Below are positions 29,206 through 63,215 of a DNA stretch of 64,000 bases, piece by piece. Numbering within the stretch: the first letter of the stretch is position 1; each line of letters starts with the position of its first letter. The notes below the pieces were generated by a model. It made no database searches. It was not told where the DNA came from and saw nothing but the letters and a program-made list of their open reading frames with translations. A program made the translations under genes and the position numbers. The DNA is from Planctomycetota bacterium (GTDB lineage Bacteria > Planctomycetota > Phycisphaerae > Sedimentisphaerales > Anaerohalosphaeraceae), in NCBI GenBank assembly GCA_019456225.1, contig VRUI01000002.1:1-64000 (forward strand), in the 5' to 3' direction.

Positions 29206-30197
<992 letters not shown>

Positions 30198-30200
30198 TTT

Positions 30201-30580: not shown

Positions 30581-30622
30581 CTACCAACTATTATCTACTG
30601 TCTACTAACTATTGACTATTGA
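30581..30622. repeat. Inverted heptamer array, right (six units)
   Basis: On the plus strand, six exact-length units CTACCAA, CTATTAT, CTACTGT, CTACTAA, CTATTGA, CTATTGA. Consensus CTAYTRA. The gmd stop codon (30616-30618) lies in the last unit. Mirrors the array at 30156-30197. Confidence 0.88.
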
Positions 30623-31620
30623 CCATGTTCTTTAAGTATCTTTTCGTTTTCTGCCAGTTTCATATCCGCATCTGTCATCATTTGTGCGAGCTGCTTGAAA
30701 GTGACCTTTGGCTGCCAGTCCAGCACCTTTTTGGCCTTGGACGCATCACCGAGAAGTAAATCAACTTCTGTCGGCCTGTAGTACCTTGGATCGATCTCGA
30801 CATAATCGTTCCAGTCAAGATCTAGATGCCCAAACACCTCATCAAGAAATTCTTGGACCGCATAAGTCTCGCCGGTCGCAACGACATAGTCGTCTGGCTG
30901 GTCCTGCTGAAGCATCAGCCACATAGCCTCGACATAATCGCCTGCAAAGCCCCAGTCACGCTTTGCTTCTATATTACCGAGATAAAGTTTTTCCTGAAGA
31001 CCAAGCTTTATCCTTGTTGCCGCACGGGTGATCTTCCTGGTAACAAACGTTTCACCGCGTCGTGGCGATTCGTGATTGAAAAGAATGCCGTTGCAGGTAA
31101 ACATGTCATAAGCCTCGCGGTGGTTGATCGTCTGCCAGTATGAATAAACTTTTGCGCAACCGTACGGACTGCGCGGGTAGAATGGTGTTGATTCTGTTTG
31201 AGGAGTTTCAAGCACCTTTCCATACATCTCACTGCTCGATGCCTGGTAGAACCTTGCAGGTTTTTCCATCGCACGTATTGCCTCGAGCAAACGAAGCGTA
31301 CCGAGAGCATCGGCGTTAACGGTATATATCGGTTGATCGAAACTTACCCGAACGTGGCTTTGTGCACCAAGGTTGTAAATCTCGTCGGGCCTGACATCAT
31401 TGATAATATTTGAAAGATTGCCGCCGTCGGTAAGATCGCCATAAATAAGCTTCAGTTTCGGATCTTCGTGCGGGTCCTTGTACAAATGGTCTATACGTTC
31501 GGTATTGAAGGATGAACTTCTGCGGACAATTCCGTAAACTTCATAATCTTTTTTAAGCAGCAGTTCGGTGAGGTATGAACCATCCTGACCAGTGATTCCG
31601 GTGATTAATGCTTTCTTCAA
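30616..31620 (-). CDS. gmd: GDP-mannose 4,6-dehydratase
   Basis: 334 aa SDR enzyme making GDP-4-keto-6-deoxy-D-mannose, the first step to GDP-fucose. Features: [36 protein letters not shown], catalytic Tyr/Lys in [13 protein letters not shown], and [20 protein letters not shown] start with AAAGGAG eight bases upstream. Its end is directly abutted by a heptamer array. A fucokinase fragment 0.5 kb upstream suggests the locus once also had a fucose salvage route. Confidence 0.96.
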
Positions 31621-34742: not shown

Positions 34743-34764
34743 CTAACTAATTTTTAACTATTTT

Positions 34765-34857
34765 ATCGCTCATTGCTAATCGCCAATTGCTGACTGCTAA
34801 TTGCTTATCGCTTATCGCTTATTGCTGTTGAGCGAAGCGAAATCCGCCGAAGGCGGA
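34765..34857. repeat. Heptamer array (ATYGCTN), nine units, plus TCCGCC hairpin
   Basis: Nine successive 7-bp units (ATCGCTC, ATTGCTA, ATCGCCA, ATTGCTG, ACTGCTA, ATTGCTT, ATCGCTT, ATCGCTT, ATTGCTG; 34765-34827) lead into TTGAGCGAAGCGAAA and the hairpin TCCGCC-GAA-GGCGGA (34843-34857). The hairpin touches the stop codon of the UDP-glucuronate epimerase gene (34858-34860). The hairpin and its AGCGAAA tail are an inverted copy of those at 10085 and 31794. Longest heptamer array seen. Confidence 0.85.
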
Positions 34858-39437: not shown

Positions 39438-40958
39438 TTATCCTTTCGGTTTTTTACCTGCTATTTTATATACCGGACCTGACTTAACGAAATCGTAATT
39501 ATCCAAAATAAAACCCGGGCAATAGCCCTTCTGGGCAGAAACAACATATACTGATCTTTCTTCAAGAAGTTCATCCAGCGTTTCTGCGGTGACAAAGTCC
39601 ATCGGACTCTTATAGCCACCATGCTCGGAAATAACTTTGACATCCTTTCTAAGCCCCGATACCTCCTGTTCATACCAGAGGGCATAAACCGTCGTCCCGT
39701 CAGCGATAATTACGCTATCCTCATCGACCGAATTAAGTGCCGCTTCAACAAAACGTCCAGGCTGGTTATTGCCTCTCTGCCAAGGCCGTAAGAAGAAAGC
39801 GTACTCGTTGCGATACGGGATCTGACGCTTTGTCCCCAGGCTGACTTTCATTCGCTCGGCAACTATTGGAACCGCAATGTAAGCCGGTATCGGCAACAGT
39901 GAAAAAATTACTATCGCATAAGGGATATATTTATTTTGAAAACGCTCAATGAACCCCTGACAGCCGACCCCAATGAAGACGCTTGCCACGCAGTAAAACG
40001 GAATAAAAAAGGCATACCGGTCCGCGACCGTATATCGAAAAGCAAATATGAAAAATATCGCCGTCATCGCGGCGAGCATATTTGCGAAAGCCCTGTATTT
40101 CATTATTTTGTAGAGTCCTAACAGGCCGGCAAAGAACAGCAGAATATTCGGCGTTGGAAAATTCAGCCCGAAAAACATAAAGTTCTGCTTTACGATCGTA
40201 CTGTTTAAAGCGGCATTAAGAACCTCATCGCTGTACGAAATGCCGAATAAAGCTGAACGCATTGTCGCTAAAAAATCGCCTGTAGCTATCAACTCCCGAA
40301 CAATCAGAACTTCATAAGGCAAACACCCGGCTATCCAAAGCAGGGCCATCAGCGATAGCTGTCTAAGCTTTAGTTCCCTACTGTAAATTAATACTGCCGC
40401 CATCACAACATAACATGCCAGCGGCAATGTCCCCAGCATATGATTGGAGACCGAAAGCCCATTGAAAAAGGCAAGCAGATAGAGAAAGCCAACCTTTTGA
40501 TCTTTAAAATACAAAAAAAGAAATATCAACTCTGCTGAAAAAATTGCCGTATAGAGAACATACGTCTCTGCGATGGCACTATGCTGCCAGAACGTCCATG
40601 AAAGGCAAAGAGTAATTCCACCAACGACAGCCGGAAGCAGCCGGCCCACAGCGAGCCTCAGCAGCAGAAAAATATTCGCCACCGTTATCGCCCCGCACAC
40701 AGACGATATCAGGTTTACGCGATGCCCAAATTCACCAAGCGGGATACTTTTCGCAGCTATTGCAATCAAATAATAAAGCGGATGGGCAAGTGCCAGCCCA
40801 AGGCCGCCTGCAATATCGTTATGCCAGAGGCGATACTGAATCATTCCGCTATCCTGCCACTGCGAACCGGGAGCGCAAGTAAACGCATAGAGGATCACCG
40901 AAGCACCAAAAACAAAAAAATAGCTTCGAACCAATTGTTTAGGAGAACATTCTTTCAA
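39438..40958 (-). CDS. DUF2723 family membrane protein
   Basis: About 506 aa. DUF2723 pattern near the N-terminus (QWQDSGMIQYRLWHNDIAGG, LGLALAHPLYYLIAIAAKSI), about eleven hydrophobic segments, and a soluble C-terminal part with DGTTVYALWYEQEVSGLR. The family resembles protein O-mannosyl/GT-C transferases, common in Planctomycetota and Bacteroidota; biochemistry unproven. The start is uncertain: TTG at 40958 with GAGG upstream is preferred; a TTG at 41003 would translate through a hairpin repeat. Confidence 0.82.
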   Translation of the reverse strand: MKECSPKQLVRSYFFVFGASVILYAFTCAPGSQWQDSGMIQYRLWHNDIAGGLGLALAHPLYYLIAIAAKSIPLGEFGHRVNLISSVCGAITVANIFLLLRLAVGRLLPAVVGGITLCLSWTFWQHSAIAETYVLYTAIFSAELIFLFLYFKDQKVGFLYLLAFFNGLSVSNHMLGTLPLACYVVMAAVLIYSRELKLRQLSLMALLWIAGCLPYEVLIVRELIATGDFLATMRSALFGISYSDEVLNAALNSTIVKQNFMFFGLNFPTPNILLFFAGLLGLYKIMKYRAFANMLAAMTAIFFIFAFRYTVADRYAFFIPFYCVASVFIGVGCQGFIERFQNKYIPYAIVIFSLLPIPAYIAVPIVAERMKVSLGTKRQIPYRNEYAFFLRPWQRGNNQPGRFVEAALNSVDEDSVIIADGTTVYALWYEQEVSGLRKDVKVISEHGGYKSPMDFVTAETLDELLEERSVYVVSAQKGYCPGFILDNYDFVKSGPVYKIAGKKPKG

Positions 40959-40969
40959 TAAAACAGCCT

Positions 40970-41092
40970 CGGCCAAAGGCCGAATCAAACAACTATCGAC
41001 CAACGACTAAAAACTAACGACTAGTAAGCCTCGGCCTTGGGGCCGAATCCTCAAATAATCAATAATAATTTTCATACTGACCTTTGGTCAGT
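40970..41092. repeat. Heptamer array (CGACTAA) between three hairpins
   Basis: Hairpin CGGCC-AAA-GGCCG (40970-40982) with tail AATC. Then five heptamers CAACTAT, CGACCAA, CGACTAA, AAACTAA, CGACTAG (40990-41024). Then hairpin TCGGCC-TTGG-GGCCGA (41031-41046) again with tail ATCCTCAAA, and finally ACTGACC-TTT-GGTCAGT (41076-41092). The last shares its arm with the palindrome at 57141-57164. Confidence 0.78.
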
Positions 41093-41709
41093 TTGAACAG
41101 ACTCCGTCCCCGTCGGGCGCAGCAAAAGTGGGCGTAAACCCGCCAAACCCGAGAAAAATACACATCTCGTTTGTCTATCTATCGGCAATAATAAGCCAAA
41201 ATTATACAAGTTCCGGCGTGTATTTAATAATAATAGGACAATAATCTACCCTATAAGAAAACCGCAGGACCCATAAAAAGCTCATTGTAGCAACGCCAAA
41301 TCAAGATAGCAAACACCAAGGGCTACAAAGTCTCATAAAAACAAGCCCGCCAGAATTGATAGCTGCAGATAAAGGAAGAAGAGGAAAACAACAGAGATTT
41401 CATTCTAGTGCTGCGAAAATTTGAGAACATGCAAAATCAAAAACGCCCCAAAAACCGGTCGGCCCAGTTTCCAGGCATTTTATGCCGACAATTAATCTAT
41501 CAGAGTTCAAAATAATTCGCTGCAAAGTGTGCCCATACCGCCTGCGGCAAAGCCAAAGAATACGCCCCCCAAACAGGCATAAAAGGAGCAATGCTAAAAT
41601 TCATAGAAAAGGCACTAGTAGACGTCAGAACCTTTTAGCTCTCAAGAATTCTAATTTCGCACCCACAACCCGTCACTTTCGCACTTTCAAACGTTTTATT
41701 TCACACGTC
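41093..41709. other. Gene-free spacer
   Basis: No credible intact gene. The sequence GACTCCGTCCCCGT (41099-41112) also occurs at 31773-31786. A short open stretch around 41530-41638 on the plus strand (reading CAHTACGKAKEYAPQTGIKG then a C-terminus VDVRTF) looks protein-like but has no start and is unassigned. Iterated words GTCACTTTC/GCACTTTC begin at 41672. Confidence 0.5.
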
Positions 41710-53489: not shown

Positions 53490-53528
53490 ACCTTGATGGT
53501 TTTTTGGGCATTTTATTTTTAGCATAAC

Positions 53529-53569
53529 GAGCGTCTGACCGATATAATCCGGTTGGACGCTCTTTTTTT
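53529..53569 (+). terminator. Intrinsic terminator of rpsT
   Basis: GAGCGTC (53529-53535) pairs with GACGCTC (53556-53562), followed by seven T. The loop itself contains ACCG/CGGT. 39 bp after the rpsT stop. Confidence 0.9.
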
Positions 53570-53591
53570 CAAACTGGCCTGGCGGTCAGCA

Positions 53592-53632
53592 TGAAAATGT
53601 CTAATGTCTAATGAAGGATTCGCCTTCGGCGA
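53592..53632. repeat. Heptamer array (GTCTAAT), four units, plus TCGCC hairpin
   Basis: TGAAAAT, GTCTAAT, GTCTAAT, GAAGGAT (53592-53619), then hairpin TCGCC-TTC-GGCGA (53620-53632) and tail GGCTATTTATAAAAA. The last heptamer, hairpin arms and tail are shared with the element at 57169-57240, though the heptamer body differs. Confidence 0.85.
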
Positions 53633-53691
53633 GGCTATTTATAAAAAGGCAGGAAGCGATAACAGTAAGTATTTACCTGAGAAAGAAGTAT

Positions 53692-54870
53692 ATGGATAGT
53701 ATATTTTCTGATAGAATTACTGATGTTCCTCGTTCGTTCATTCGTGAGATATTGAAAGTCACTCTCGATCCTTCTGTAATTTCGTTTGCGGGGGGGCTTC
53801 CTAATCGCAATTTTTTTCCGGTTGACGAACTTAAAGAAGCTACGGCTAATGTTTTCGAATCCAATTGCCGGGATACGTTTCAGTATGGTAAATCAGAAGG
53901 TTATCAGGAACTGCGTGAGTTTATTTCGCGGCGGTATCGTGAAAAACAAAATCTTGATATTCCGGTTGATGATATTTTAATCACTAATGGGTCGCAGCAG
54001 GGTTTGGATCTTTTAGGTAAAACTTTACTAAATGAAGGCGATGAAGTTATCATAGAAGAACCGGGGTACCTTGGAGCGATACAGGCACTTTCAATTTATC
54101 GGCCCACCTTCCTGCCTGTTGGGGTATATGATGATGGGATGGATCTGCAGAAGCTGGCCCAGGTCGTCGAATCGAATAAACCAAAACTTATGTATACGGT
54201 TCCAAATTATCAGAACCCGTCCGGCATATCTTATACGGAGGAAAACAGGCGCGGAGTTGCGGATATTCTTGCCGGTTCTAAAACTGTGTTGCTCGAAGAT
54301 GACCCATACGGCGAGTTAAGATTTACCGGCGAAAGGAAAATATCTTTTAAGAAACTTCTGCCGGACAATACAATCTTGCTGGGATCCTTTTCAAAAATTG
54401 TTGTACCGGGATTTCGACTTGGCTGGGTTGTTGCTCCTTCGCCAATTATGAAGAAACTTATTATCGCAAAACAGGCGACCGATCTGCATACTACTCATTT
54501 TACCCAGAGTATTCTTTATCAATATCTAACAAACAATGACCTCGATAAGCATGTTAATACAATTATTGAGGCTTATGGAAATCAATGCCGGGCCATGCTC
54601 AAGAGCATCGAACAATTTTTTCCGAAAACGGTACACTGCACAAGACCTGAGGGCGGGATGTTCTTATGGGCGCAGCTGCCGGAGAATGTATCTTCTTTAG
54701 AATTGTTTGAAATGGCGGTTAAGGATAAGGTTGTGTTTGTGCCGGGTCGTCCTTTTTATGTTAATAATGCCGCGACAAATACTTTGCGGCTTAATTTTTC
54801 TTGTGCAGATGAGGAGATGATTAAGATTGGAATTGAACGTTTGGCGACGGCAATTAACGAATTGATTTGA
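53692..54870 (+). CDS. PLP-dependent aminotransferase, class I/II (2-aminoadipate/aromatic type)
   Basis: 392 aa. SFAGGLPNRNFFPVDELKEA, YGKSEGYQELREF, NGSQQGLDLLGK, YTVPNYQNPSGISY, LLEDDPYGELRF and the Schiff-base lysine in GSFSKIVVPGFRLGWV match the LysN/AroH-like and MocR-aminotransferase branch without a DNA-binding domain. The ATG at 53692 has AGAAAGAAG upstream; an in-frame start at 53611 would run through the repeat hairpin. Substrate not determined. Confidence 0.9.
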   Translation: MDSIFSDRITDVPRSFIREILKVTLDPSVISFAGGLPNRNFFPVDELKEATANVFESNCRDTFQYGKSEGYQELREFISRRYREKQNLDIPVDDILITNGSQQGLDLLGKTLLNEGDEVIIEEPGYLGAIQALSIYRPTFLPVGVYDDGMDLQKLAQVVESNKPKLMYTVPNYQNPSGISYTEENRRGVADILAGSKTVLLEDDPYGELRFTGERKISFKKLLPDNTILLGSFSKIVVPGFRLGWVVAPSPIMKKLIIAKQATDLHTTHFTQSILYQYLTNNDLDKHVNTIIEAYGNQCRAMLKSIEQFFPKTVHCTRPEGGMFLWAQLPENVSSLELFEMAVKDKVVFVPGRPFYVNNAATNTLRLNFSCADEEMIKIGIERLATAINELI

Positions 54871-54885
54871 CGGCTGAAAATCAGC

Positions 54886-54900
54886 GTGGGCACGGCCCAC
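54886..54900. repeat. GTGGGCAC(G)GCCCAC hairpin
   Basis: GTGGGCACGGCCCAC followed by CCTAC. Near-identical to 32014-32028 (GTGGGCACAGCCCAC then TCTAC). Lies in the 16-45 bp leader of rnr and so may affect its translation or expression. Confidence 0.75.
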
Positions 54901-54915
54901 CCTACGAGCATTATT

Positions 54916-57138
54916 ATGGAAGATGTTTTTAAACAACAGATACTTAAGTTTCTTTCCCGGCGTGAGCAGCTTCCGATCAAGAGTGTCGCTCTTGCCGGTC
55001 TTCTTAATGTCAGAGAGAGAGACTTGCCGGATTTTGAGGCGGCTGTGGCGGAGCTGGCTAAGCAGGGTAAGATCGATCTTGGCAGGGGAAACCAGATCGA
55101 CCTGCCGGATATGCGCAGTACGGTCGTCGGCACTTTCAGGGCAAACCCCAAAGGTTTCGGGTTTGTCATCCCTACCGATCTAAATGCTCACGGCGATCTT
55201 TTTATTGGTCCTTCCGATTGCGGCGATGCTATGAGCGGAGACATGGTTGCGGCAAGGCCAATGAGAAAGGGGTATAGAAAAGGAGAGATGAGATACAACG
55301 GTGTTATCGTTGAGATCATCACACGAGGGAATACGAAACTTGTGGGCAACCTGGGCAAGGTTGGGTCGCAATGGGTTGTTCAACCGGATGGCAAAGCTTT
55401 TATAAATCCTATCGCGGTTGACGATGTTACGGTGAAGGGTGCCAAAGCCGATGACAAGGTTTGCGTTGAGATCATTCGGTACCCGACTGAGACTTCGCTT
55501 GCGCGTGGAGTTATTACGGAAGTACTGGGTCGAGCGGGTGCTTACGATACGGAGATCGAAGCGATAAGGATACAATATTCTCTGCCCGGGGAGTTCGGCG
55601 AAGAATGTCTTCAGCAGGCCCGGGATGCGGCTGGGCACTTTGATTCGGTTGACGTCAGCAAGCGTGATGATATCACCGATGATGTTTTGATTACTATCGA
55701 CCCACCAGACGCCAAAGATTTTGATGACGCTATAAGCCTGCGTAAGAATCCCGACGGCAACTGGGTTCTGGGCGTTCATATCGCCGACGTCAGTACTTTT
55801 GTGAAGATGGATTCGCCGCTTGATATCGAAGCTCAGAATCGCGGCAACAGCGTTTATCTGCCGGGCAAAGTTATCCCTATGCTTCCGGAAATACTCAGTA
55901 ACGGGATATGCTCGCTTCAACCGGATCAGAAGCGGTTCGCGAAAAGTGCTTATATAACTTATGACAAGCGAGGCAATGTCCTTGACAGGAACTATGCCAA
56001 CAGTATTATCAAATCGCGGGCGCGGCTTACTTATACGCAGGCCGACGAGATAATCAAGGGACACGCCAAAGGTGTCACCGGCGAGGTTGTGGCGCTGCTT
56101 AAGGACATGGATGACCTGGCACGGGCGATCGAGAAACGCCGGACGAAAAACGGTATGCTTCATCTTGATCTGCCGGAGACCGAGCTTGTTATGGATGAAA
56201 ACGGTAAGGTCATCGATGCTAACCCGGCGGAGAACAGTTATCCGCATACGATAATCGAGATGTTCATGGTTGAGGCTAACGAAGCGGTGGCATCGCTTAT
56301 GGACAGGTTTAATATTCCGTTTATTCGGCGAATTCACCCTGAGCCGGACTCGTCGAAGATGAAGGATCTTGGCAGTTTCGTTAAGATTTGCGGAATCAAA
56401 CTGCCGCGGCAGCTTGACCGGGCGGCAATACAGGATCTGCTGGAATCGGTAAAGGGGACAGGGTCATCGTATGCTATTAACCTTCATATTTTGCGAAGCC
56501 TTCAAAAGGCCGAGTATGCTCCACTGCATATCGGACATTTTGCGCTGGCTTCGGTTCACTATGCTCATTTTACCAGTCCGATACGGCGGTATGCTGATCT
56601 GCTTTTGCATCGGCTGCTTGATTGTTACCTGGAGCACAAACTTAATATGATCGGGCTGGAAGAGGTTTTGCCGGAAGTTACTCTTGCCGAGATCGGTAAC
56701 CATATCAGCTTGACCGAGCAGAATGCTATCAATGCCGAGAGAGAACTTAAGAATGTTCTTGTTCTCGAATTGTTCAGTGAGAAAGTCGGCGAGGAGATCG
56801 ACTGTGTGGTTTCGGGGATTACCGGGTTTGGTATTTTTGTTCAGTGTATGAAGTACGGGGTCGAGGGTTTGATCGAGCTTGCCGACCTGGGGCTTGACGA
56901 ATGGAAATATGACAGGCGGAAACAGGCTGTTATCGGATTGCATTCCGGTAAAAGCGTTCACCTTGGCAACGAGATGAAGGTTAGGATACTTTCGGTGAAT
57001 GTTCCGGCGAGGCAGCTGAGCCTGGGGCTTTCCAAGCCGCTTGTCTCTACGAGAGAAGAGTATGGCAATCGAGGCAGAGGTTACGGCAGGGGCAAAGGAA
57101 GAAACAAAGGCTTCAGAAGCAGAAAACGCAGAAGGTAG
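54916..57138 (+). CDS. rnr: Ribonuclease R
   Basis: 740 aa. N-terminal winged helix (residues about 8-60), two cold-shock domains (GTFRANPKGFGFVIP), the RNB catalytic domain with four Asp in IDPPDAKDFDDAISL, HIADVSTFV and YAHFTSPIRRYADLLLHRLL, an S1 domain (GEEIDCVVSGITGFGIFVQC) and a Gly/Arg-rich basic tail. A 3'-5' exoribonuclease for structured RNA. The ATG at 54916 begins the winged helix; the longer frame from a GTG at 54886 would translate the hairpin repeat. The native leader appears to have been replaced by repeat sequence, with no clear Shine-Dalgarno. Confidence 0.95.
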   Translation: MEDVFKQQILKFLSRREQLPIKSVALAGLLNVRERDLPDFEAAVAELAKQGKIDLGRGNQIDLPDMRSTVVGTFRANPKGFGFVIPTDLNAHGDLFIGPSDCGDAMSGDMVAARPMRKGYRKGEMRYNGVIVEIITRGNTKLVGNLGKVGSQWVVQPDGKAFINPIAVDDVTVKGAKADDKVCVEIIRYPTETSLARGVITEVLGRAGAYDTEIEAIRIQYSLPGEFGEECLQQARDAAGHFDSVDVSKRDDITDDVLITIDPPDAKDFDDAISLRKNPDGNWVLGVHIADVSTFVKMDSPLDIEAQNRGNSVYLPGKVIPMLPEILSNGICSLQPDQKRFAKSAYITYDKRGNVLDRNYANSIIKSRARLTYTQADEIIKGHAKGVTGEVVALLKDMDDLARAIEKRRTKNGMLHLDLPETELVMDENGKVIDANPAENSYPHTIIEMFMVEANEAVASLMDRFNIPFIRRIHPEPDSSKMKDLGSFVKICGIKLPRQLDRAAIQDLLESVKGTGSSYAINLHILRSLQKAEYAPLHIGHFALASVHYAHFTSPIRRYADLLLHRLLDCYLEHKLNMIGLEEVLPEVTLAEIGNHISLTEQNAINAERELKNVLVLELFSEKVGEEIDCVVSGITGFGIFVQCMKYGVEGLIELADLGLDEWKYDRRKQAVIGLHSGKSVHLGNEMKVRILSVNVPARQLSLGLSKPLVSTREEYGNRGRGYGRGKGRNKGFRSRKRRR

Positions 57139-57140
57139 CT

Positions 57141-57240
57141 CAAACTGACCTGCAGGTCAGTTTGAAATGAATAATGATTATTGTATAATGTATAATGTAT
57201 AATGAAGGATTCGCCCTTATGGGGCGAGGCTATTTTTAAA
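57141..57240. repeat. Perfect palindrome, heptamer array (GTATAAT, six units) and TCGCC hairpin
   Basis: A perfect 24-bp palindrome with arm CAAACTGACCTG (57141-57164). Then heptamers GAATAAT, GATTATT, GTATAAT, GTATAAT, GTATAAT, GAAGGAT (57169-57210), then hairpin TCGCCC-TTATG-GGGCGA (57211-57227) and tail GGCTATTTTTAAAAA. Same architecture and same last unit and tail as 53592-53650, with a different heptamer body. Confidence 0.85.
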
Positions 57241-57290
57241 AAAAGTTGCGTTTCAAATTAAAATTTTGGAATTAAATTAAGGAGAAAAAA

Positions 57291-60269: not shown

Positions 60270-61025
60270 ATGAGAAAGCCGTTTATAGCCGGCAACTGGA
60301 AAATGAACACCGACAGCCAGTCCAGCACTGCACTTGCATCCGGACTCGCCGAAAACCTGAAATCAGTAACAACTGTTGACGTGGCAGTATGCCCCCCGTT
60401 CGTATACCTCCAGTCAGTGGCAAAAGCACTCGGCGATTCTGGTATTGCAATTGGCGCCCAGGACGTCTATTTTGAAGGCAACGGTGCATTCACCGGCGAA
60501 ATCAGCTGCGAAATGCTCAAAGACGTTTGCTGTACATACGTCCTTTGCGGTCATTCAGAAAGACGCCACGTAATCGGCGAATGCGACGAATTGATCAACA
60601 CAAAGCTCAAAGCGGCACTGGCAGCAGGCATCAAGCCCATCCTTTGCGTTGGCGAACTCCTTGAAGAACGAGAAGCCGAAAAGACTGACGAAGTAGTTAC
60701 AGACCAGACCAAAAAATGCCTGGCAGGCGTATCGGCCGAAGAAATGGCAAACGTAACCATTGCCTACGAACCAGTATGGGCCATCGGAACCGGCAAGACA
60801 GCAACGGCCGGACAGGCACAGGAAGTTCACGCGATGATCAGAAAGCTCCTGGCCGAGATATACGACGCGACAGTCGCCGAAAACACACGAATTCAGTACG
60901 GCGGGTCGGCAAAACCCGGAAATACTGCAGAACTGATGGCCAACCCTGACGTAGACGGCTTGCTCGTTGGCGGAGCCGGTCTGAAAGTCGATGATTTTTC
61001 TGCTATGATTAATACCGTCGCATAG
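60270..61025 (+). CDS. tpiA: Triosephosphate isomerase
   Basis: 251 aa. Catalytic residues in FIAGNWKMN (Lys), VLCGHSERR (His) and TIAYEPVWAIGTGKTAT (Glu and loop 6). Interconverts DHAP and G3P. AGGAG is seven bases before the ATG. Followed by secG, a common pairing. Confidence 0.97.
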   Translation: MRKPFIAGNWKMNTDSQSSTALASGLAENLKSVTTVDVAVCPPFVYLQSVAKALGDSGIAIGAQDVYFEGNGAFTGEISCEMLKDVCCTYVLCGHSERRHVIGECDELINTKLKAALAAGIKPILCVGELLEEREAEKTDEVVTDQTKKCLAGVSAEEMANVTIAYEPVWAIGTGKTATAGQAQEVHAMIRKLLAEIYDATVAENTRIQYGGSAKPGNTAELMANPDVDGLLVGGAGLKVDDFSAMINTVA

Positions 61026-61103
61026 GTATAATAGCGACGAAAAGTAAATCTGTTATTAGATAATTTATAATCTAGAACTGCAAAAGTTAAGAGAGGTTAA
61101 AAA

Positions 61104-61496
61104 ATGATAAATCTTCCACTGGCCAATATATTGATCAATTTTATCGCTGTCGTTTGGTTGCTCAGTGCGTTATTACTGATCGGAATTATTCTGATCCAAA
61201 AGGGAAAAGGCGGCGGTCTTGGCGGTGCTTTTGGCGGAGCAGGCGGCGGTGGCGGCCTTCTCGGTACAAAAACCGGCGACTTCCTGACCTGGGTAACCAT
61301 CGGACTGGTATTTTTGTTCTTTTTTCTGGCAATTATCCTCGTCAAATTCGGAAAACTATCTGTCGATGAAGACCTGAAAGGCCCCGGTCCGGATGCAAAA
61401 ACAGGAGCACCGGCAGGCGGCACTGGCGGCAGCGACGAGAAAACTCCAGTTATCCCTGATACTACAGACGAAAAACCTGGCGAAACAACAGAATAA
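61104..61496 (+). CDS. secG: Protein translocase subunit SecG
   Basis: 130 aa. Two transmembrane helices (about residues 11-31 and 56-76) flank a Gly-rich loop (QKGKGGGLGGAFGGAGG) with the typical GxxxFLTW entry. The C-terminal 45 residues are a Pro/Gly/Asp tail, longer than in E. coli. AGAGAGG before the ATG. Part of the SecYEG channel. Confidence 0.92.
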   Translation: MINLPLANILINFIAVVWLLSALLLIGIILIQKGKGGGLGGAFGGAGGGGGLLGTKTGDFLTWVTIGLVFLFFFLAIILVKFGKLSVDEDLKGPGPDAKTGAPAGGTGGSDEKTPVIPDTTDEKPGETTE

Positions 61497-61507
61497 GCGG
61501 GCATTAT

Positions 61508-62392
61508 ATGATAAGCAGTATGACAGGATTTGGTGAGATCACCGCCGAGGTAGACGGTACGGTCTACTCCGTTGAGATACGCACGGTAAACAACCGTCAT
61601 TTGAAGGCCTACGTACGTCTGCCCGAAAAAGCAGCGTTTCTCAATGACCCGATCGAAAAAATGATCCGAAATGAGTTATCCAGGGGAACTGTCAATTATT
61701 CTCTGCGTATGCATAACATCTCATCGCAAGCCGATGTCGAGATAGACAAAAATACGCTTAAGGGATATATAGACAACCTGAAGGATATCGCAACTGAAAC
61801 CGGTCTTCAAGAAAATATCGATCTCGCAGTCCTTCTGACTTTGCCCGGTGCAGTACAGGAAATTACACCATCAGAAGAAGTGGCTGAGAAGCTCAAGACA
61901 GTAATACTCGACCTGACATCGAAGGCGATAGACAAACTTAAAGAGATGAGAGCCCAGGAAGGCATCGATCTGGCAGACGACCTCCTGGCAAACTGCCGAA
62001 TTTTGAAGGAAAAGACCGATCAAGTACATAGCAATAGTACAGATACGGTAGAACTATATCATGAAAAATTAAAAAAGCGAGTCGACGAGTTGCTTGCAAA
62101 CGCAAAGCTGAAAATTGATTCCGATCTGCTTGCACGGGAAGTAGCGATATTCGCCGAAAGAAGCGACATCGCCGAAGAGACAACCCGTCTCAATTCCCAC
62201 CTTAAGCAGTTTGAAAAAGCCTGCAAAGGCAACGAAAATGTTGGCAGACGGCTGGATTTCATCAGCCAGGAAATGCTGCGAGAAACAAATACGATAGGCA
62301 GCAAGGCATTGAACGCCAGCATTAGCAACCTGGTTATAGATATGAAGTGTATTATCGACAGAATTAAAGAACAAGTTCAAAATGTTGAATAA
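61508..62392 (+). CDS. yicC: YicC family protein (endoribonuclease)
   Basis: 294 aa. ISSMTGFGEITAEVDGTVYS at the N-terminus and the DUF1732 C-terminus (SEIRLxSH-like TTRLNSHLKQFEKACKGNE, GRRLDFISQEMLRETNTIGS) identify YicC, reported as an endoribonuclease in E. coli. Lies directly upstream of gmk, the usual arrangement. Confidence 0.95.
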   Translation: MISSMTGFGEITAEVDGTVYSVEIRTVNNRHLKAYVRLPEKAAFLNDPIEKMIRNELSRGTVNYSLRMHNISSQADVEIDKNTLKGYIDNLKDIATETGLQENIDLAVLLTLPGAVQEITPSEEVAEKLKTVILDLTSKAIDKLKEMRAQEGIDLADDLLANCRILKEKTDQVHSNSTDTVELYHEKLKKRVDELLANAKLKIDSDLLAREVAIFAERSDIAEETTRLNSHLKQFEKACKGNENVGRRLDFISQEMLRETNTIGSKALNASISNLVIDMKCIIDRIKEQVQNVE

Positions 62393-62409
62393 GGTTTAAT
62401 TTCATAACC

Positions 62410-62988
62410 ATGAAAGATAATAACGGAAAACTTATAGTAATAAGCGGCCCTTCCGGGGTTGGCAAAAGTACTATCTCTTCGGAAGTAGTAAAAAGACTCG
62501 ACGCCTACCTCTGCACCTCCGTAACAACAAGAACCAAGGGCGAAAACGAAGTCGATGGAGAGCATTACCAGTTCATCACGACCGAAGAATTCAATAAGGG
62601 CATAGTAGAAGATCGCTTCCTCGAATACGCCGAGGTCTTTGGAAACCATTACGGCACACCATGGCAGCCGATCGAAGACGCACTTGAAGAGGGCGAAACC
62701 GTACTGCTGGAAATAGACGTACAAGGCGGACTCGCCGTCAAGAAGGTTTACAAAGATGTACAATTGATCTTCATCGTACCGCCGCACACCAGCGACCTCA
62801 AAAAAAGATTGGATGGCAGACAAAGAGGCGAAAACGACGAATCGAGAAAGAAAAGGCTCCAGGGAGCCGGCGAAGAAACTGCAAAAGCATGGCAGCATTA
62901 TGACCACATGGTCATTAATGACGACCTTGAAACAGCGATAAATGAAGTAATTGAAATTATACAGGGAAAGACCGGAGAAAACACATGA
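62410..62988 (+). CDS. gmk: Guanylate kinase
   Basis: 192 aa. P-loop [19 protein letters not shown]-binding [18 protein letters not shown], and [10 protein letters not shown]. Phosphorylates GMP to GDP. The stop overlaps the rpoZ start by four bases (ATGA). Confidence 0.97.
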
Positions 62989-63215
62989 TAGAAGATTTGA
63001 AAGACACAGAGATAGTCAATAAGGTCGGCGGAAAGTTTAAGCTTTCGTCGCTTATTCAAAAACGCATGCTCGAACTTATGGAAGGCGCACGCCCTCTTAT
63101 CGATGATACCGAAGGTAAAACTATGATGGAGATCGTCATCGAAGAGATCAAGTTTGACAAGATCGCAATAGACACCGATACCAAAAAAAGCGATAAACCT
63201 GCATTCAAACTCTAA
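62985..63215 (+). CDS. rpoZ: DNA-directed RNA polymerase omega subunit
   Basis: 76 aa. The core [20 protein letters not shown] and [11 protein letters not shown] match omega, and the gmk-rpoZ-coa order is the classic one. Overlaps gmk by four bases; coaC follows after 18 bp. Confidence 0.93.

Follow-up and report, generated by a model that had tools for sequence, protein, structure and literature searches.

The 64,000-nt window analyzed here (positions 1–64000 of contig C72 in the Planctomycetota genome G000, hereafter the home genome; 4.45 Mb in 152 contigs) harbors members of a multi-copy family of short elements in which conserved ends enclose an array of 7-nt units whose sequence differs between copies. 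Being short (<~600 bp), devoid of coding capacity and repeated, this family is a miniature inverted-repeat transposable element (MITE) by the usual criteria, save for an autonomous partner. Its terminal inverted repeats (TIRs), 7-bp target-site duplications (TSDs), copy number, array length steps of whole heptads, independence of array body and ends, and placement next to stop codons are firmly established. From these patterns we infer mobilization in trans, replication slippage and module exchange, and we estimate at about 80% the probability that the copies represent a trans-mobilized MITE whose array changes by slippage of whole heptads and by exchange of modules.

The aligned copies present a first hairpin (H1), the heptamer array and a second hairpin (H2) with its tail, to which long copies add a variable 3′ module as a fourth part. 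H1 is a near-perfect palindrome of two fused TIRs (CTCAAACTGACC-NNNN-GGTCAGTTTGA). H2 has the form G-ATTCGGCC-loop-GGCCGAGGC and is followed by TATTTTATTAAAAA, with conservation running about 17 nt beyond the stem. The 3′ module ends in TTTTCGGTCAGTTTGAG, an inverted copy of the 5′ end, which gives the long form a 12-bp TIR on either side. These TIRs (CTCAAACTGACC/GGTCAGTTTGAG) were observed in full-length copies from several genomes. Full-length copies measure 168–171 bp, and one copy of 157 bp is shorter by exactly two heptads. The majority of copies lack the 3′ TIR and are thus short forms. A preliminary description of the window had reported two elements of this kind, and both were located where it had placed them: element 1 at 53595–53647 (AAATGTCTAATGTCTAATGAAG + GATTCGCCTTCGGCGA + GGCTATTTATAAAAA) and element 2 at 57166–57242 (AATGAATAATGATTATTGTATAATGTATAATGTATAATGAAG + GATTCGCCCTTATGGGGCGA + GGCTATTTTTAAAAA).

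These two copies are far from alone, since the home genome contains at least 150, a lower bound drawn from model searches and fetched stretches; the case named in the preliminary description as a refutation, a family of just two copies, does not arise. The search suggested in the preliminary description, for the exact motif followed by the hairpin arm, recovered six occurrences in the home genome. A looser 16-mer search (TAATGAAGGATTCGCC with ≤3 mismatches) returned 124 matches relative to 27 for the reversed control, and all of the scored candidates (150/150) matched a covariance model built from 14 copies (E-values from 1e-20 to 2e-3). At the family level (29 genomes), we counted at least 147 copies in the home genome, 59, 22, 10, 6 and 5 in five relatives, 1–2 in six genomes and none in the remaining 17; the model was trained on the home genome and these counts are lower bounds for diverged copies. 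With stricter filters, matches across the phylum were confined to 5 of 392 genomes. One match to Cohnella in the collection scan (L038) was dismissed as a chance match, and the window presented no Rfam match above the gathering score.

Evidence for transposition comes from the flanks. Exact 7-bp flank repeats were found in 7 of the 17 full-length copies and matches of at least 6/7 in 9 of them, whereas random re-pairing of the flanks yielded a mean of 1.1 copies and a maximum of 5 at ≥6/7 (n = 17). Altogether, at least 11 copies from G000, G410 and G413 present exact TSDs (the additions including L121, L310, L313 and L315). The duplicated sequences are TTATTTA, TAAGTAA and TAAATAA in the home genome, TTAATAA in G410, and AGGTTAA, TAGCTTA and TAAGGTA in G413, as well as TAATTAA, ATCCTAA, TTAACAT and another TAAATAA; 6/7 matches were observed in G392 and G395. 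The target is AT-rich, roughly TWANTWA. Sites without the element were also found. The atpD–atpC spacer of the home genome (75 nt) consists entirely of element, with atpD ending on the TGA of the TIR, whereas most relatives with a resolved spacer present 2–49 nt and no element. No element follows rnr in the relatives whose rnr stop could be placed (reverse-orientation loci not counted). We propose that a transposase acting in trans would move the element via CTCAAACTGACC/GGTCAGTTTGAG, duplicating 7 bp of AT-rich target.

The array itself varies in whole units. We parsed 104 elements, drawn from six genomes. In 99 of them the length of the array was 0 or 1 mod 7, and arrays ranged from 14 to 49 nt (2–7 units, with a mode of five), in line with the array diversification put forward in the preliminary description. 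Tabulating the bodies, as had also been proposed, revealed discrete classes, which in the home genome are A (AATGTAT, AATGTCT, AATGAAT, AATGATT), B (AATTACG/T), C (ATTGATT, ATTTATT/A) and E (AGTCGTT). Under the same ends, sister genomes carry AGTCGTT (G395), AAATCAA/AGAGCAA (G410) and AAGTCAA (G413), and G392 carries AATGTCT/AATGATT plus AGTTATT. The bodies of elements 1 and 2 had been described as different: their units do differ, but both are minor variants of class A, and AATGTCT and AATGTAT are mixed within single arrays elsewhere. Units within one array are alike, and replication slippage, by which array units would turn over, would explain both this likeness and the steps of 7.

Bodies are also shared between copies. 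The body AATGAATAATGATTATTGTATAATGTATAATG recurs exactly at 4 sites, the first 33 nt of an AGTCGTT body are identical in a second genus (L120 vs L226), and a single body was found among the copies seen in each of G410, G413 and G395. Identical multi-unit bodies at unlinked sites, together with a body common to another genus, indicate that bodies are mostly copied along with the element. These findings, like the membership of elements 1 and 2 in one class, do not support the earlier proposal that the array is rewritten after insertion, if this is taken to happen each time. A change of body would be a rarer event, creating sub-families or swapping modules. In one copy (L236; G395:C107), the first heptad (TAAGGTT) reads as the left flank (AACCTTA) in reverse complement and extends the H1 palindrome. 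Template switching at a hairpin would produce such a heptad, and the copy may record one rewriting event.

We further compared the array with its flanking modules. Identity between copies of the same vs different array class was nearly equal for H1 (0.821 vs 0.815; permutation P = 0.06), for H2 with its tail (0.729 vs 0.728; P = 0.39) and for the 3′ module (0.726 vs 0.739; 11 copies; P = 0.86), in contrast to the array itself (0.855 vs 0.642; P = 0). Each main body class occurs with several H2 stem types, and near-identical 3′ modules accompany different bodies (C in L163, A in L049). Array class does not track the variants of the flanking modules; ends and array are independent across 82 copies, and the view that these are copies of a single element, constant at its ends and variable in its body, holds. 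A third element of the window, absent from the preliminary description, lies on the − strand (41097 to ~40950) and carries two bodies in tandem (41071–40990), class C-like then AGTCGTT, each followed by its own GATTCGGCC hairpin (H2). This element looks like a recombinant. The independence of class and flanks, the several H2 types per body and these tandem bodies support module exchange. Whole arrays would occasionally be exchanged between copies, by recombination or by template switching at the hairpins, and exchanged arrays could then found sub-families that multiply by copying.

Several points weigh against this interpretation. No autonomous insertion sequence (IS) with these TIRs at both ends was found among the 15 DDE_Tnp_1 loci of the home genome (0/15; other DDE families were not searched), and the mobility of the short forms is deduced from the full-length copies only. 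Class A is enriched with the H2 stem ACCGCC (chi-square P = 0.03), a weak association between body and H2 implying that exchange is not free. The missing association between body and ends could also stem from a star-like radiation with saturated ends. Slippage, finally, is a process that we infer and did not observe.

The copies are strongly biased in their placement. We used as genes the mechanically predicted open reading frames (ORFs) of at least 90 codons and considered the 83 parsed copies of the home genome. A gene on the same strand precedes 66 of them (P = 6e-8), and in 57 the copy begins no more than 10 nt from the stop codon of that gene, relative to 3% for random intergenic points in the same stretches. 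The TIR carries a TGA stop in one frame, and in 16 copies the stop of the gene is the TGA inside CTCAAACTGACC. Some copies lie between co-directional genes resembling atpD–atpC, yajC–secD and flgB–flgC (names assigned by eye from the protein sequences), a position that speaks against an efficient terminator. The placement would be explained by a TA-rich target combined with selection against damaging genes. A host function would not be required, and effects on mRNA, in which the element would form a two-hairpin spacer between genes transcribed together, may exist as a secondary property.

The same placement and orientation bias would be expected if the element were a functional post-transcriptional element (mRNA stabilizer, attenuator or terminator) that selection maintains downstream of stop codons. 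The stems agree with this possibility, as paired changes occur on their two sides and the predicted single-molecule folds are far more stable than those of shuffled sequences (z from −6 to −7.6). However, purifying selection and a TA-rich target also predict the placement bias, the element sits inside operons that require read-through (the three gene pairs above), H1 has no U-tract, and most relatives lack the element at orthologous sites. We rejected a strand-specific role in RNA because A.C mismatches in H1 (45) exceed G.T mismatches (19), with no G.U excess on the sense strand, and we regard the functional explanation as a whole as unlikely. A more serious possibility, although we hold it at somewhat less than even odds, is that a few master elements, with their own arrays and otherwise identical ends, multiplied independently as clean sub-families, with neither exchange nor rewriting. 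Identical or near-identical multi-unit bodies at many sites and the one body per genome in G410, G413 and G395 are what such a history would leave. It fits poorly with array classes that do not predict the variants of H1, H2 or the 3′ module, with the 3′ modules shared by L163 and L049 under different bodies, and with tandem bodies that each have their own H2 and bodies that occur with several H2 types. At the other extreme, the array might be actively replaced as a block, through a template switch or a recombination event at the hairpin that the fused TIRs form, spreading unrelated 7-bp repeats across genomes and phyla under constant ends. If so, the 7-bp period of the array and of the TSD would reflect one enzymatic step, and the spread of heptamer arrays in bacteria would be explained; we consider this quite unlikely.

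The shared 7-bp length of TSD and array unit also raises the question of whether the heptads are fossil target duplications, deposited as insertion and excision recurred beside the internal TIR of H1. The array does start directly at that internal TIR, and both array and TSD are AT-rich. Yet units start with A in 91 of 104 arrays, whereas the real right flanks mostly start with T (14/24), array units are mostly unlike the current TSD of their element, and many heptamer arrays in the genome have other sequences and no TIRs. Since phase and first base disagree, we rejected TSD fossils as the origin of the array, which leaves this scenario very unlikely. Finally, the family could be of REP/REPIN type, with the RAYT/TnpA-REP Y1 transposases of the genome as its mobilizing enzymes. 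Five Y1_Tnp matches (two of them weak) were found in the genome, the short hairpin H2 lies at gene ends, and inverted array–hairpin pairs in some relatives are REPIN-like. However, no element or array lies within ~1.5 kb of the five Y1_Tnp loci, the hairpins bear no GTAG or CGTC tag, and the copies possess 7-bp TSDs, which Y1 enzymes are not known to make. As the Y1_Tnp genes are unlinked to the element, mobilization by REP/RAYT was rejected and appears extremely improbable. We retain the trans-mobilized MITE with slippage and module exchange as the most likely explanation.

Within the window, the preliminary description had correctly placed elements 1 and 2 but had left out the palindromes upstream of them. 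Element 1 (+ strand) comprises a degenerate fused-TIR palindrome H1 (53569–53594; TCAAACTGGCCTGGCGGTCAGCATGA), an array of three class A units (53595–53616; AATGTCT AATGTCT AATGAAG), H2 (53617–53632; GATTCGCC TTC GGCGA) and a tail of the short form, without the 3′ module and 3′ TIR (53633–53647; GGCTATTTATAAAAA). It follows rpsT, and directly 5′ of it lies a hairpin with a T-run (53528–53568, + strand; CGAGCGTC...GACGCTCTTTTTT), which resembles an intrinsic terminator and belongs to the host DNA, outside the element. Element 2 begins directly after the stop codon (57136–57138, + strand) of rnr (RNase R; 54886–57138). On the + strand, it consists of the TIR and palindrome H1 (57139–57165; CTCAAACTGACC TGCA GGTCAGTTTGA), six class A units (57166–57207; AATGAAT AATGATT ATTGTAT AATGTAT AATGTAT AATGAAG), H2 (57208–57227; GATTCGCCC TTAT GGGGCGA) and a tail of the short form (57228–57244; GGCTATTTTTAAAAAAA). 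In element 3 (− strand), H1 (TTCAAACTGACCAAAGGTCAGTATGA) and the class C-like array (AAATTATTATTGATTATTTGAG) occupy 41050–41097, and positions 40950–41049 contain H2 (GATTCGGCCCCAAGGCCGAGGC), the second array of a different class (AGTCGTTAGTTTTTAGTCGTTGGTCGATAGTTG), the second H2 (GATTCGGCCTTTGGCCGAGGC) and the tail.

Elsewhere in the home genome, some elements were found interrupted by other sequences. An IS with a DDE_Tnp_1 transposase and the TIR CAGTACTGTCC splits the class B array of one element (L321/L085; G000:C11 ~61000–63100). In another (L141, positions 1277–1530; G000:C78), the H1 loop contains an inserted repeat of ~240 bp (TGTAACCATTCAC...GTGAACGGTTAC), accompanied by a 7-bp duplication (CCTTTGG), and parts of this repeat recur at L165. 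A candidate TIR pair at C69:42102–44555 was discarded as an autonomous IS, no recognizable transposase ORF being seen inside by eye, and lone 3′ TIRs, also considered as ends of autonomous IS, look like truncated copies.

Period 7 dominates the repeat structure of the window. Further arrays with this period but unrelated sequences (AATTCGT, TAGTTAG, CTAACTA, TTATCGC) were found at 123–157, 30172–30199, 30602–30623 and 34763–34827, and behind some of them stands a short hairpin of another kind (TGCCCGCAAAGCGGCA; ATCCGCCGAAGGCGGA). In 534 kb of the home genome, chosen around elements and hence enriched, we counted 119 period-7 arrays vs 0–14 for each of periods 4–6 and 8–12, and no period-7 array in Markov-generated sequence. 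The main-type H2 motif is missing near 59 of the 119, which include many other sequences (TTAGCAA, TTTGCTC); some of these belong to elements with other H2 types. In other Planctomycetota (L074, L078 and L079; G310 and G127), heptamer arrays form inverted pairs around a hairpin core (array-GAAGG-hairpins-CCTTC-array), a REPIN-like layout. Three other genera present other heptamer arrays at the same atpD–atpC gap (L271, L288 and L279; G405, G142 and G401): ATTGTAG with a GGAATCGCC hairpin, TTCTTAA and an AATTCGA-like sequence.

Many bacteria contain an excess of heptamer arrays, for which neither a vehicle nor a mechanism is established (PMC4692102, PMC4679880), although polymerase slippage has been proposed as the cause of the heptamer excess (PMC4692102). 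The family described here links one large set of such arrays to a transposable element whose ends are defined and which duplicates its target. It constitutes a natural record of repeat-array turnover: since one genome contains at least 150 copies and sister genera have bodies specific to their genomes, strain comparisons allow one to measure how units turn over, how bodies are exchanged and how copies insert next to stop codons.

We found no earlier description of such a family in the open-licence literature. Composite MITEs with tandem modules are already known; what is new here is a 7-bp array that differs in sequence, and not just in length, between copies with the same ends. In its layout, the family resembles the pneumococcal BOX elements (PMC3049150), which are composite and MITE-like, with fixed ends (boxA and boxC), TIRs, TSDs, a variable number of boxB modules and a proposed mobilization in trans. 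However, boxB is far larger and forms one sequence family, whereas the 7-bp units fall into several unrelated classes under the same ends. BrickBuilt of Porphyromonas gingivalis is likewise a MITE; it has a leader, a tail and TIRs, and the copy number of its internal minisatellite varies. However, its 23-nt unit belongs to one family, its TSD is 4 nt, its TIRs are of IS5 type, it has 19 copies, and body exchange is not described in the accessible parts of that report (PMC4596501). Small hairpins and high copy number are shared with REP/REPIN, the GTAG- or CGTC-tagged palindromes reported in Planctomycetes too (PMC3733652), but our family differs by its TIRs, 7-bp TSD and internal array, and in it we found neither a tag tetranucleotide nor a linked RAYT. 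Finally, the heptameric simple sequence repeats of Xanthomonas and Nostoc (PMC4692102), the TAACTGA repeats of Beggiatoaceae (PMC4679880) and the four-heptanucleotide elements of Geobacter metallireducens (PMC2700814) are short and mostly intergenic period-7 arrays with few units, many copies, a patchy phylogeny and no established mechanism of spread. The accessible parts of these reports describe no vehicle with TIRs and TSDs for them, whereas the large set of arrays described here travels inside a MITE.

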